Shown one piece after another: positions 8,875 to 12,777 of a stretch of DNA of 41,587 nt. Positions within the stretch are counted from its first letter, which is position 1, and each line of letters begins with the position of its first letter. Origin of the DNA: Clostridia bacterium. Lineage in GTDB: Bacteria; Bacillota; Clostridia; Monoglobales; Monoglobaceae. The notes beneath the pieces were generated by a model that saw nothing but the letters and a program-made list of their open reading frames with translations, made no database searches and was not told the origin of the DNA. The DNA lies in contig JAFSDN010000078.1 of assembly GCA_017436245.1 (NCBI GenBank), forward strand, positions 1-41,587, given 5' to 3'. Both the position numbers and the translations under genes were made by a program.

Positions 8875-9369
8875 TCATTTCATTATTCCGCTTTTATCAA
8901 AAAACTTAGCAAGAATAAGCCCCACAATCATACCAATCACGCCCTGAAGTCCGTTGAATGTAAGGCTGACTGCCGCCGCTGCAAAACCGCCGTATATAAC
9001 AGATTCAAAAACAAAATAACCCAAAACCATTATAACTTCCGCAACCACTGCACCGATTAGTCTTGACGGCAAAATCCCCGTTTTACCTTTCAGACATTTT
9101 GCGAAAAAGAATGCCGTCAGAGCCATAACGCCTTTGATAATAAAGGTTGCAGGTGCATAAACGCCAAACCCCAGAAGCAAATCCGCAAGCATCGAACCGA
9201 TTGCCGCCGCAAAAAAGCCGAACAAGGGTGACAGCATCCACCCTGAAAGCAGAACAATACTGTCACCAAGATTAACATAGCCCTTTGGCGACGGAATCTT
9301 TATTACCATTGTTGCAACACACGCAAGTGCCGCAAACAAAGCAGCCATTATAACTTTTTTTGTTTTCAT
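8875..9369 (-). CDS. ECF transporter S (substrate-binding) component
   Basis: 164 residues with five or six hydrophobic segments. The N-terminal ALFAALACVATMVIKIPSP, then GYVNLGDSIVLLSGWMLSPLFGFFAAAIGSMLADLL and YAPATFIIKG, match the ECF S-component family grouped with the riboflavin-type transporters. Such proteins bind a vitamin or related small molecule and work with a shared EcfT-EcfA-EcfA' energising module, which is not in this window. The start follows AGAGGAGATG. No riboswitch that would name the ligand is seen in its short leader, so substrate stays open. Confidence 0.85.
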   Translation of the reverse strand: MKTKKVIMAALFAALACVATMVIKIPSPKGYVNLGDSIVLLSGWMLSPLFGFFAAAIGSMLADLLLGFGVYAPATFIIKGVMALTAFFFAKCLKGKTGILPSRLIGAVVAEVIMVLGYFVFESVIYGGFAAAAVSLTFNGLQGVIGMIVGLILAKFFDKSGIMK

Positions 9370-9457: not shown

Positions 9458-9486
9458 TTGACAAAATACTTACACTTTGATAAAAT
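9458..9486 (+). promoter_or_regulatory. Sigma-A promoter of the hyd leader RNA
   Basis: TTGACA (9458-9463), 17-bp spacer, TAAAAT (9481-9486). Transcription should begin near 9493, leaving a leader of about 225 nt before the first coding region. Confidence 0.75.
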
Positions 9487-9492
9487 ATTAAC

Positions 9493-9677
9493 ATAGGATA
9501 TTTTCTGATGCTGAGGATAAGGGTTCGCCCGAGTCCGGGGCAAAGGTTTTTACGTCTTATCGCCCTCAACCGAAGAGGGTATTGTGATTCCCGTCCAACG
9601 GCAAAGAATCTCAATTTAACTCAAAACAAACCTTTGGCACCCATGCATCAAATTTGCATTGGTGCCTGATTTTTTTT
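9493..9677 (+). ncRNA. Structured leader RNA upstream of the hydE/hydG operon (candidate riboswitch or sRNA)
   Basis: This stretch holds no ORF but many paired segments: GATAAG (9516-9521) with CTTATC (9556-9561); CCCG/CGGG (9528-9539) inside it; CCCTC-AACCGAA-GAGGG (9563-9579); GATTC (9586-9590) with GAATC (9606-9610) enclosing CCGT-CCA-ACGG (9591-9601); and a perfect long-range 9-bp match CAAAGGTTT (9541-9549) with AAACCTTTG (9628-9636). The last overlaps by one G the foot of an intrinsic terminator (9636-9677). It has its own promoter. I compared it from memory with TPP, SAM, FMN, cobalamin, THF, guanidine, Mn, c-di-GMP, T-box, 6S and SRP consensus features and none fits. It could be a cis-acting leader or a free-standing small RNA. 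Confidence 0.65.
9636..9677 (+). terminator. Intrinsic terminator at the end of the hyd leader RNA
   Basis: GGCACC-C-ATGCA, 7-nt loop, TGCAT-T-GGTGCC, then TGA and eight T. The U-tract can also pair with the following A-run (CCTGATTTTTT / AAAAAATCAGG, 9665-9689), an alternative fold that could favour read-through. Confidence 0.85.
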
Positions 9678-9719
9678 AAAAAATCAGGGCATACTACTCT
9701 CAAAAAGGAGTTGAAACAA

Positions 9720-9965
9720 ATGGACACAAGAATTGCAATTATTGGTATAATTGTTGAAAACACAGAATTTGCCGACGACATCAACCAGCTTCTTCACGAA
9801 TACGGCTCATACATTGTTGGCAGAATGGGTATTCCCTACCGTGAAAGAAAAATTTCGGTTATGAGCATTATTATTGATGCATCAACAGACGTCATCGGTG
9901 CACTTTCGGGCAAGCTCGGCATGCTTGAGGGCGTTTCGGTTAAAACAGTTTATTCCAAGGAGTAA
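9720..9965 (+). CDS. TM1266-type iron-only hydrogenase system regulator
   Basis: 81 residues from the ATG at 9720, which has AAGGAG 9 nt upstream; the longer in-frame extension has no start signal and would run back into the terminator. The sequence (RIAIIGIIVENTEFADDINQLLHEYGSYIVGRMGIPYRERKISVMSIIID) matches the small ferredoxin-like/ACT-like TM1266 family, commonly annotated as putative iron-only hydrogenase system regulator and typically next to hydE/hydG. It is the first gene of the maturation operon, 5 nt before hydE. A ligand-sensing role is inferred from the ACT-like fold; no biochemical function can be read. Confidence 0.85.
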   Translation: MDTRIAIIGIIVENTEFADDINQLLHEYGSYIVGRMGIPYRERKISVMSIIIDASTDVIGALSGKLGMLEGVSVKTVYSKE

Positions 9966-9970
9966 AAACA

Positions 9971-11017
9971 ATGACAAACAAACAGCTTATCCAAAAACTG
10001 AATACCAGAGGTGTGCTCACAAAAGATGAGTTTGTTTGTTTACTGTCATCTTACAACAGAACCGATGCGGAATATGCACAAAAACTTGCGCAAAAGATTG
10101 CAAAAGCATATTTCGGCAACAAGATTTTTATACGCGGGCTCATTGAGTTTACAAATATATGCAGGCAAAACTGTTATTATTGCGGACTCCGTGCCGAAAA
10201 CAGCAAAGCCTCACGTTACCGCCTGACCAAGGACGACATTCTGGAGTGTTGCCGTGAGGGCTACCCTCTGGGCTTTCGGACATTTGTTCTTCAGGGCGGT
10301 GAAGACCCCCACTTTGACGATGAGCTTGTGTGTGATATTGTAAAAAGCATAAAAGCAGAATTCCCTGACTGTGCCGTAACCCTTTCAATCGGCGAAAAGT
10401 CAAGGAATACATACCAAAGTTTTTTTGATGCCGGAGCAGACCGCTATCTCCTTCGACACGAAACAGCAAACAGCGAGCATTATTCAAAGCTCCACCCCAA
10501 AACTCTGAGCCTCGAAAACCGTAAAGAATGTCTGTTCAACTTAAAGAAAATCGGCTTTCAGACAGGCTGTGGATTTATGGTTGGCTCGCCACATCAGACC
10601 GTTGAAACCCTTGCCGAGGATTTGCTTTTTATACATGAGCTCCAACCCCAGATGGTTGGCATCGGGCCCTTTTTACCCCACAAGGATACCCCATTTGGAA
10701 GAGAGCCGGCAGGTAGCTTTGAGCTGACGTTATTTTTACTCTCACTGGTACGTATAATGCAAAAAAATGTGTTGCTTCCGTCCACCACCGCTTTGGGCAC
10801 AATTCATCCCCAGGGCAGAGAGATGGGAATTCTGGCAGGAGCAAACGTTGTGATGCCCAATCTGTCACCGGTGTCGGTCAGAAAAAAATATATGCTTTAT
10901 GACGGCAAAATCAGTTCCGACAGCGAATCTGCACAGGGGCTTGAAGAACTGAAAGAAAGATTTAAAAAAATTGGTTATGAAATTTCCGTTTCACGCGGCG
11001 ATTTTCGGAAAGGATGA
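9971..11017 (+). CDS. hydE: [FeFe]-hydrogenase maturase HydE (radical SAM)
   Basis: 348 residues, the family's usual size. The radical-SAM CX3CX2C motif is ICRQNCYYCGLRAEN with C64, C68 and C71. Downstream are GYPLGFRTFVLQGGEDPHF, LRHETANSEHYSKLHP and GFMVGSPHQTVETLAEDL, all characteristic of HydE. HydE acts with HydG and HydF to build the 2Fe subcluster of the H-cluster, contributing to the dithiomethylamine bridge. The start follows the preceding gene's AAGGAGTAAAA. It ends 6 nt before hydG, so the genes are translationally close. BioB- and PylB-type relatives are less likely given the hydG partner. Confidence 0.95.
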   Translation: MTNKQLIQKLNTRGVLTKDEFVCLLSSYNRTDAEYAQKLAQKIAKAYFGNKIFIRGLIEFTNICRQNCYYCGLRAENSKASRYRLTKDDILECCREGYPLGFRTFVLQGGEDPHFDDELVCDIVKSIKAEFPDCAVTLSIGEKSRNTYQSFFDAGADRYLLRHETANSEHYSKLHPKTLSLENRKECLFNLKKIGFQTGCGFMVGSPHQTVETLAEDLLFIHELQPQMVGIGPFLPHKDTPFGREPAGSFELTLFLLSLVRIMQKNVLLPSTTALGTIHPQGREMGILAGANVVMPNLSPVSVRKKYMLYDGKISSDSESAQGLEELKERFKKIGYEISVSRGDFRKG

Positions 11018-11023
11018 TTAATT

Positions 11024-12448
11024 ATGGCAAAATACGATCCCAAATCATTGGTTGCTGAAGAATTCATCAACCACGAAGAAATACTTGACACCATTGAATA
11101 TGCAAAGGCAAACAAGTCAAACAAAGAGCTCATCTTCTCTCTGATTGAACGTGCCGCAGACTGCAAGGGTCTGACACACCGTGAAGCAGCCGTTCTTCTT
11201 GAATGTGACATTCCCGAAGCAATTGATGCAATCAAAGACCTTGCAATAAAAATAAAGGAAAGAATATACGGCAACCGTATTGTTATGTTTGCCCCCCTTT
11301 ACCTTTCCAATTACTGCGTAAACGGCTGTACATACTGCCCATACCATCACGGCAACAAGTGCATCACACGCAAGAAGCTCACTCAGGAAGAAATCAAAAA
11401 CGAGGTTATTGCCCTTCAGGATATGGGTCACAAGCGACTTGCAATCGAGCTTGGTGAAGACCCCGTAAATAACCCCATTGAATATGTTCTTGAAAGCATC
11501 AACACTATCTACGGCATCAAGCACAAAAACGGTGCAATCCGTCGTGTAAACGTAAATATTGCGGCAACAACAGTTGAAAATTACCGCAAGCTCAAGGATG
11601 CAGGCATTGGAACATACATTCTCTTTCAGGAAACATACCACAAGGAAAACTACGAAACACTTCATCCCACAGGCCCCAAGCACAATTATGCATACCACAC
11701 CGAAGCAATGGACAGAGCAATGGACGGCGGAATTGATGACGTGGGCATCGGTGTTCTTTTTGGTCTTGAAATGTACCGCTACGACTTTGTTGGTCTGCTG
11801 ATGCACGCCGAACACCTTGAAGCAGCTAAAGGCGTTGGCCCTCACACAATCAGCGTTCCCAGAATTTGCCCTGCCGAGGGTATTGACAGAGACTCCTTCA
11901 CAAACGCAATTTCTGACGAAATCTTTGAAAAAATTGTTGCAATAATCCGTATTGCCGTACCTTACACGGGTATGATAATCTCAACAAGAGAATCAAAAGC
12001 ATCACGGGAAAGAGTTCTGAGGCTGGGCGTGTCACAAATCAGCGGCGGTTCAAAGACATCTGTTGGAGGATACATCCACGATGAGCCCGAGGAGGAGAAT
12101 TCAGCTCAGTTTGACATCAGCGACACCCGACCCCTTGATGCGGTTGTGAACTGGCTTTTGGAGCTTGGCTATATTCCCAGCTTCTGCACAGCCTGCTACC
12201 GTGAAGGCAGAACAGGCGACCGTTTCATGTCACTTGCCAAATCGGGACAGATTGCAAACTGCTGTCAGCCCAATGCCCTCATAACACTCAAGGAATATCT
12301 GACAGACTACGCATCACCCCAAACCATTGAAAACGGCTTGAAGGTTATCAAAAATGAAGTTGAAAAGGTTCCCAACGAAAAAACACGGGAGCTTGCAAAA
12401 AAATATATTGCTGAAATTGAAAACGGAAAAAGAGACTTCCGATTCTGA
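11024..12448 (+). CDS. hydG: [FeFe]-hydrogenase maturase HydG (radical SAM tyrosine lyase)
   Basis: 474 residues. HydG cleaves tyrosine to p-cresol and makes CO and cyanide ligands as an Fe(CO)2(CN)-cysteine synthon for the H-cluster. The N-terminal radical-SAM motif is YCVNGCTYCPYHH (C98, C102, C105). The C-terminal auxiliary-cluster motif is CX2CX22C (C388, C391, C414), which separates HydG from ThiH. ELGEDPVNNPIEYVLESI and LFQETYHKENYETLHPTGPKHNYAYHTEA are typical. It begins 6 nt after the hydE stop behind GAAAGGATG. HydF is not in this window, nor is a hydrogenase structural gene. Confidence 0.96.
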   Translation: MAKYDPKSLVAEEFINHEEILDTIEYAKANKSNKELIFSLIERAADCKGLTHREAAVLLECDIPEAIDAIKDLAIKIKERIYGNRIVMFAPLYLSNYCVNGCTYCPYHHGNKCITRKKLTQEEIKNEVIALQDMGHKRLAIELGEDPVNNPIEYVLESINTIYGIKHKNGAIRRVNVNIAATTVENYRKLKDAGIGTYILFQETYHKENYETLHPTGPKHNYAYHTEAMDRAMDGGIDDVGIGVLFGLEMYRYDFVGLLMHAEHLEAAKGVGPHTISVPRICPAEGIDRDSFTNAISDEIFEKIVAIIRIAVPYTGMIISTRESKASRERVLRLGVSQISGGSKTSVGGYIHDEPEEENSAQFDISDTRPLDAVVNWLLELGYIPSFCTACYREGRTGDRFMSLAKSGQIANCCQPNALITLKEYLTDYASPQTIENGLKVIKNEVEKVPNEKTRELAKKYIAEIENGKRDFRF

Positions 12449-12477: not shown

Positions 12478-12777
12478 ATGGTTAAACACGTAATTATCTG
12501 GAACTTCAAAGAAGAACTTACCGCAAAAGAAAGAACTGTTGCGGCAGCAAAAATCAAAGAAGGCATTGAGGGTCTTATGGGACAGATTGATGGACTCACA
12601 GACATCAAGGTATACATCAATCCCCTTGCATCATCCAGCGGCGACCTTATCCTTGACAGCACATTTGTTGACGAAGACGCATTAAAAGGCTATCAGGTAC
12701 ACCCTGCACACGTTGCCGTTGCATCATATGTCCGTTCTCAGGTTGGCAGCCGTGCCAGCTTTGATTACGAAGTGTAA
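12478..12777 (+). CDS. Dabb-family (stress-responsive alpha/beta-barrel) protein
   Basis: 99 residues. The start MVKHVIIWNFKEE, the central LMGQIDGLTDIKVYINPL and the end GYQVHPAHVAVASYVRS match the Dabb domain, a dimeric ferredoxin-like barrel. Members include small stress proteins and some enzymes; many have no known role. AAAGGAG precedes the ATG. It lies 29 nt after hydG on the same strand with no terminator between, so it is probably the fourth gene of the hyd operon. Whether it takes part in hydrogenase maturation or merely rides along is unknown. Confidence 0.88.
   Translation: MVKHVIIWNFKEELTAKERTVAAAKIKEGIEGLMGQIDGLTDIKVYINPLASSSGDLILDSTFVDEDALKGYQVHPAHVAVASYVRSQVGSRASFDYEV

Follow-up and report, generated by a model that had tools for sequence, protein, structure and literature searches.

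The leader of the TM1266-hydE-hydG operon in the window (the 41,587-nt stretch of DNA that was analysed) is almost certainly one copy of a widespread cis-regulatory RNA found across many anaerobic bacteria, judging from its conservation and covariation. Its design is very probably that of an attenuator, in which a conserved hairpin, once formed, would leave a terminator free, and an antiterminator would compete with the hairpin. We consider the TM1266 protein, with somewhat better than even chances, to be the RNA-binding sensor of this leader, autoregulating the hyd regulon by PyrR-like attenuation; RNA binding, the off direction and the signal are the parts that we infer. The leader RNA family is absent from Rfam 15. 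The window leader gave nothing at gathering score and irrelevant weak matches only at E values up to 10, and 20 further leaders gave a tRNA elsewhere and sub-threshold irrelevant matches only. Neither the T-box model nor the PyrR-element family matched the window leader or these 20 leaders. The earlier note had likewise found no fit to the riboswitch consensuses it considered, and no description of the element was found in the open-access literature searched.

The features of the leader and of the TM1266-hydE-hydG operon lie on the forward strand. A sigma-70/A-type promoter is predicted at 9458-9486 from consensus matches (11 of 12), with TTGACA and TAAAAT separated by 17 nt and a TG before the -10 hexamer (extended -10), as the earlier note had proposed for the region ahead of the hyd genes. 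The transcript from 9493 to 9682 folds at -57.8 kcal/mol, with a z-score of -3.0 against shuffled sequences and of -1.8 when the terminator is left out. The sequence features described in the note were all confirmed, but the two hairpins in the loop between the antiterminator arms (9562-9580 and 9581-9615) are not conserved. When the entire leader was searched by BLAST within the family, the sole good alignment was to a same-genus relative (G023), in which promoter, first hairpin and terminator are retained but the leader middle is missing. The two middle hairpins are therefore species-specific, and the conserved parts of the window leader are the first hairpin and the terminator only. An inverted repeat, CCTGATTTTTT/AAAAAATCAGG, can sequester the terminator U-tract; it is present as claimed but ends one base earlier (9665-9688 rather than 9665-9689), is imperfectly kept in G023 and was seen nowhere else. 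The Shine-Dalgarno sequence AAAAAGGAG (9702-9710) precedes the gene of the TM1266-family protein, our proposed RNA-binding regulator (9720-9965; PF21699, E 1.5e-34; TIGR03959 above cut-off), which is followed by hydE (9971-11017; NCBIfam TIGR03956 above cut-off) and hydG (11024-12448; NCBIfam TIGR03955 above cut-off). A small Dabb-domain (PF07876) protein is encoded directly after hydG (12478-12777), and G023 is arranged alike. On the reverse strand, a divergent gene for an ECF transporter S component of the riboflavin family (8875-9369; PF07155) adjoins the hyd operon.

Leaders of TM1266 genes from the same order share a hairpin, which is also present when hydG or hydF comes next. A first covariance model built from 13 leaders recovered about 70 further copies at TM1266 loci in many Clostridia, Erysipelotrichia and others, and a second model (R2), built from those further copies, was used for whole-genome searches. 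The sole R2 match at E<=5 in the window's genome is at 9504-9548 (32.5 bits; E 6.5e-4 genome-wide and 1.5e-5 in the window). The core is about 45 nt long and contains two helices. P1 pairs UGC with GCA (9509-9511 with 9540-9542), and its 3' half is common to the antiterminator; this longer P1 occurs in this genus only, and elsewhere P1 is mainly a C:G pair. P2 is a covarying helix of 4 bp, GGAU/GUCC (9515-9518 with 9533-9536). The stretches flanking P2 are conserved as well, CUGA (9511-9514) and AAGG (9519-9522) on the 5' strand and CCGA (9529-9532) and GGGG (9537-9540) on the 3' strand. Across 176 non-redundant copies, both strands follow the consensus C-U-R-A-N4-R-A-R-G, and P2 is flanked by two alike internal loops (URA opposite RAR) in a pseudo-two-fold arrangement. 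In the window version, CUGA-GGAU-AAGG / CCGA-GUCC-GGGG, the RAR positions are GGG, which is rare (3/176 copies). Fourteen loci carry the hairpin in tandem, with the copies about 50 nt from each other.

In the seed set, 92% of the P2 cells are paired, and in the second set, which comes from partly new genomes, 96% are; all four pairs vary on both sides, far above shuffled and slid controls. Because both alignments had been fitted to the structure, we used a held-out set of independently chosen leaders, namely 60 other TM1266 leaders picked by protein alone and searched with a model without base pairs (R3). P2 pairing in the held-out leaders was 76%, compared with 47 +/- 4% after shuffling. The covariation score was 0.66 against 0.21 for shuffles, none of 500 shuffles reached it, and slid controls stayed at or below 0.18. 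A fixed-register regular expression for P2 was strongly enriched in leaders, with 39 matches in 138 leaders (<=450 nt) against 14 in 602 kb of background; as it was too strict, the test with the sequence-only model took its place. Model matches in coding regions were counted as false positives (L214, L225, L228, L229, L254, L349, L361, L363, L389 and L391). An Rfam match and a lack of covariation or conservation were both looked for, and neither occurred: the family is conserved and P2 covaries.

At E<=0.01, whole-genome searches found the motif in 70 of 291 genomes of the class and in 37 of 299 genomes of the phylum, nearly all of the latter new. Of 29 loci fetched anew for the phylum, whose genomes form a separate sample, 27 are directly upstream of TM1266, hydE, hydF or hydG; one of the other two lies within a gene and one before an ECF transporter S component. 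The ECF S component under the motif in L274 differs from the one in the window. No match at E<=0.05 was seen in the few genomes sampled outside the phylum, from Lentisphaeria, Spirochaetales and Coriobacteriaceae. In two MAGs labelled Alphaproteobacteria (L105, L131), a Clostridia-like hydG is preceded by both TM1266 and the motif, which means either mislabelling or horizontal transfer. A trans-acting sRNA, which the earlier note had entertained beside an attenuator, was rejected because the copies sit directly upstream of hyd genes.

Almost all copies precede TM1266 or the maturation genes, and for a few the regulon extends further. The aspartate ammonia-lyase gene (aspA) followed by hydF is under the motif in L173 and L245, and aspA is also under it in Acetobacterium bakii (L338). 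Ammonia-lyases are reported to feed the dithiomethylamine ligand, and aspA usually adjoins hydF (PMC11736057), with which the aspA-hydF loci are consistent. A NuoE-NuoF-HydA (bifurcating-hydrogenase) operon is under the motif in L193 and L246, and a HydA-like gene lies further downstream of it in L387. NitT/TauT-like ABC transporters are found under the motif, alone or after TM1266. These loci (L395, L396, L397, L398; L243, L244, L242, L401) encode a substrate-binding protein, mostly with a permease and an ATPase; several are directly 3' of TM1266, and some of the genomes have TM1266 without HydG. FecB-type ABC transporters occur with hydF and TM1266 under the motif and, in two genomes, behind nitrogenase-like genes. 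In these two (L393 and L394; G777 and G752), one operon under the motif encodes a NifH-like protein, two nitrogenase-component-like proteins, a FecB-type ABC transporter, hydF, TM1266 and hydE.

In the window, the intrinsic terminator (9636-9677; -18.2 kcal/mol) has a stem of 9636-9647 with 9655-9666 containing one mismatch (9636-9641/9661-9666 plus 9643-9647/9655-9659) and a U-tract at 9670-9677. The antiterminator would form between 9538-9549 and 9628-9641, of which 9636-9641 doubles as the foot of the 5' arm in the terminator. Its center is the perfect 9-bp match of 9541-9549 with 9628-9636 that had been described as overlapping the terminator foot; this holds, as base 9636 is common to both. 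With bulges, the match extends to 9538-9540/9638-9641, into the terminator foot, and much of the antiterminator helix sits immediately 5' of the terminator stem. Transcripts that end at 9645-9655 have the extended antiterminator as their minimum-energy fold, and at full length the energies of the hairpin-plus-terminator and the antiterminator structures are less than 3 kcal/mol apart. A terminator below -7 kcal/mol is found downstream of 82 of 98 copies. The 3' strand of the hairpin pairs with its own terminator 5' arm at a mean duplex energy of -10.8 kcal/mol; shuffled strands gave -6.9 and those of other loci -8.5 (0 of 200 in either control), and the 5' strand pairs with the same arm at -4.5 kcal/mol. 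In one related genus (L049, L050, L051, L055-L057), long palindromic or repeat-like insertions separate the hairpin from the terminator and are bracketed by an extension of the antiterminator arms of more than 20 bp.

The copies adjoining hydG overlap the Shine-Dalgarno sequence, which lies in the 3' end of the copy (e.g. ...GACCCGAAAGAAAGGA). Taken together, the terminator-linked and the Shine-Dalgarno-overlapping copies suggest that hairpin formation should mean off at both kinds of site. The earlier proposal of a riboswitch-like attenuator of the hyd maturation genes gains support from the covarying hairpin, the hyd regulon and the terminator with its competing antiterminator. A chance-folded leader with an ordinary terminator and no switch would suit the only moderate folding z-scores of the window leader, but it is contradicted by the compensatory changes, the conserved unpaired bases, the held-out genomic context and the locus-specific antiterminator pairing, and we regard it as extremely improbable.

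Motif presence tracks the TM1266 gene and not hydG. In the class, 54 of 144 HydG-positive genomes with TM1266 have the motif, against 2 of 38 HydG-positive genomes without TM1266 (p 5e-5), and 10 of the 11 motif-bearing genomes without HydG have TM1266. Since genome-wide thresholds miss weak copies, we also made matched searches of the 3 kb upstream of hydG, with the first 20 HydG genes in score order for each of the TM1266-positive and TM1266-negative classes. The motif was found in 16 of 20 TM1266-positive cases (19 of 20 including weak matches) and in 2 of 20 TM1266-negative cases. Of these two exceptions, G064 has a contig that stops where sister species have TM1266, and G237 is 93% complete and its sisters are TM1266-positive. 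Both samples together contain 102 genomes with the motif; 98 of them have TM1266, and the assemblies of the remaining four are cut or incomplete. The contrast between TM1266-positive and TM1266-negative genomes was noted within several families; the statistics ignore the tree, and the detection model was trained on TM1266 leaders. The dependence of the motif on the TM1266 gene points to a protein-dependent attenuator. However, the co-occurrence could also stem from the motif and TM1266 both sensing one ligand, or from shared ancestry.

The main rival to such a protein-dependent switch is a new metabolite- or metal-sensing riboswitch, whose hairpin would bind a ligand tied to [FeFe]-hydrogenase biogenesis and, once stabilised, cause termination or block the Shine-Dalgarno sequence. 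The compact, aptamer-like conserved core with its expression platform (terminator/antiterminator or Shine-Dalgarno) over biosynthesis and transport genes resembles the cofactor riboswitches, as do the transporters in the regulon (NitT/TauT-like ABC, FecB-type ABC and one ECF S component), and the tandem copies are in keeping with it too. Yet no Rfam riboswitch class matches, and the motif is nearly absent from HydG-positive genomes without TM1266; a ligand-binding RNA should not need this gene, and such a dependence is not what a pure ligand riboswitch would predict. We therefore hold this explanation, with a small ligand sensed by the leader RNA itself, to be rather unlikely. If the attenuation depended on another trans-acting factor, for instance an RNA-binding protein from a different locus, or on tRNA or ribosome sensing, TM1266 would be merely a frequent neighbour. 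A protein-binding hairpin suits any RNA-binding regulator, and conserved gene order by itself can yield an association. But the motif and TM1266 co-occur even where the motif is at hydG, hydF or aspA, away from TM1266, neither the T-box nor another known leader family matches, and a non-systematic look at the window leader found no evident leader peptide. This reading appears improbable.

The favoured sensor, TM1266, belongs to a family (PF21699, TIGR03959, PDB 2nzc) that is annotated as a putative iron-only hydrogenase system regulator, and the first gene of the window's operon is a clear member, being above the cut-offs of both models. Its predicted fold (mean pLDDT 94) matches Thermotoga maritima TM1266 (2nzc) and the C-terminal regulatory/effector domain of NikR (Z 12-14). 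In NikR, the C-terminal effector domain is joined to a DNA-binding domain; TM1266 has no DNA-binding domain. Five basic positions of the family are near-invariant (4, 35, 43, 65 and 75). Its net charge, near neutral in the family and -3 in the window protein, speaks against RNA binding. The candidate RNA-binding role rests on the co-occurrence, the pseudo-symmetry of the RNA and the conserved basic residues, and the observations behind the model as a whole are conservation, covariation, the regulon, the terminator, the competing pairing and TM1266 co-occurrence. On this evidence, we give about even odds to the fuller proposal that TM1266, a metal- or effector-sensing domain of the NikR type, works as an RNA-binding attenuation protein, recognises the hairpin with its pseudo-two-fold symmetry and controls a regulon for [FeFe]-hydrogenase biogenesis (hydEFG, aspA, hydrogenase and transporters) across anaerobic Bacillota.

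In the proposed mechanism, transcription of the TM1266-hydE-hydG operon would be attenuated at the leader. As the RNA emerges, the hairpin's 3' strand (CURA/RARG hairpin) may pair with the terminator 5' arm as an antiterminator, and the genes would be on; when it pairs with its own 5' strand, the hairpin would form, the terminator would be free and the genes would be off. An oligomer of TM1266 (a NikR-C/ACT-like domain), most likely the sensor and made by the operon's first gene, may stabilise the hairpin by binding both of its alike internal loops; expression of TM1266 and the hydrogenase-biogenesis genes would then fall once the signal is sufficient. This signal may be a metal, an amino acid or an H-cluster intermediate held by TM1266. 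At the hydG-adjoining copies, the same binding would cover the Shine-Dalgarno sequence.

The TM1266/RNA pair would resemble PyrR in its logic and LicT in two-loop recognition. In the pyr operon of Bacillus subtilis, PyrR stabilises an anti-antiterminator hairpin, a strand of which otherwise forms the antiterminator, and transcription then terminates; the gene of the regulator is among the targets, and the regulon has several sites (PMC7430163). Our pairing computation yields the same anti-antiterminator, antiterminator and terminator architecture, and the proposed regulator gene TM1266 is likewise a target among several sites. In contrast, the RNA consensus differs, the PyrR-element family of Rfam does not match, and TM1266 has a NikR-C/ACT-like fold, not that of a PyrR-type protein. 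LicT makes contact with two bulges and with the intervening minor groove (PMC7430163), and the RAT elements of LicT, SacY and GlcT are, like the hairpin here, short with two internal loops flanking a stem. Unlike a RAT, which is itself the antiterminator, this hairpin would free the terminator and compete with the antiterminator, and TM1266 lacks CAT and PRD domains. Identity with a LicT-type RAT antiterminator was rejected since the hairpin does not overlap the terminator.

No RNA component of the regulation of H-cluster assembly in anaerobes was known in the sources searched. TM1266 has hitherto been a putative hydrogenase regulator, and no mechanism for it was found in the open-access literature searched. 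Now that a 45-nt RNA is proposed as its target, with a regulon, a model of the switch and a candidate for the binding protein, the function of TM1266 becomes testable by one binding assay. The transporters and the nitrogenase-like operon of the regulon are clues to the signal or to steps still missing from hydrogenase maturation.
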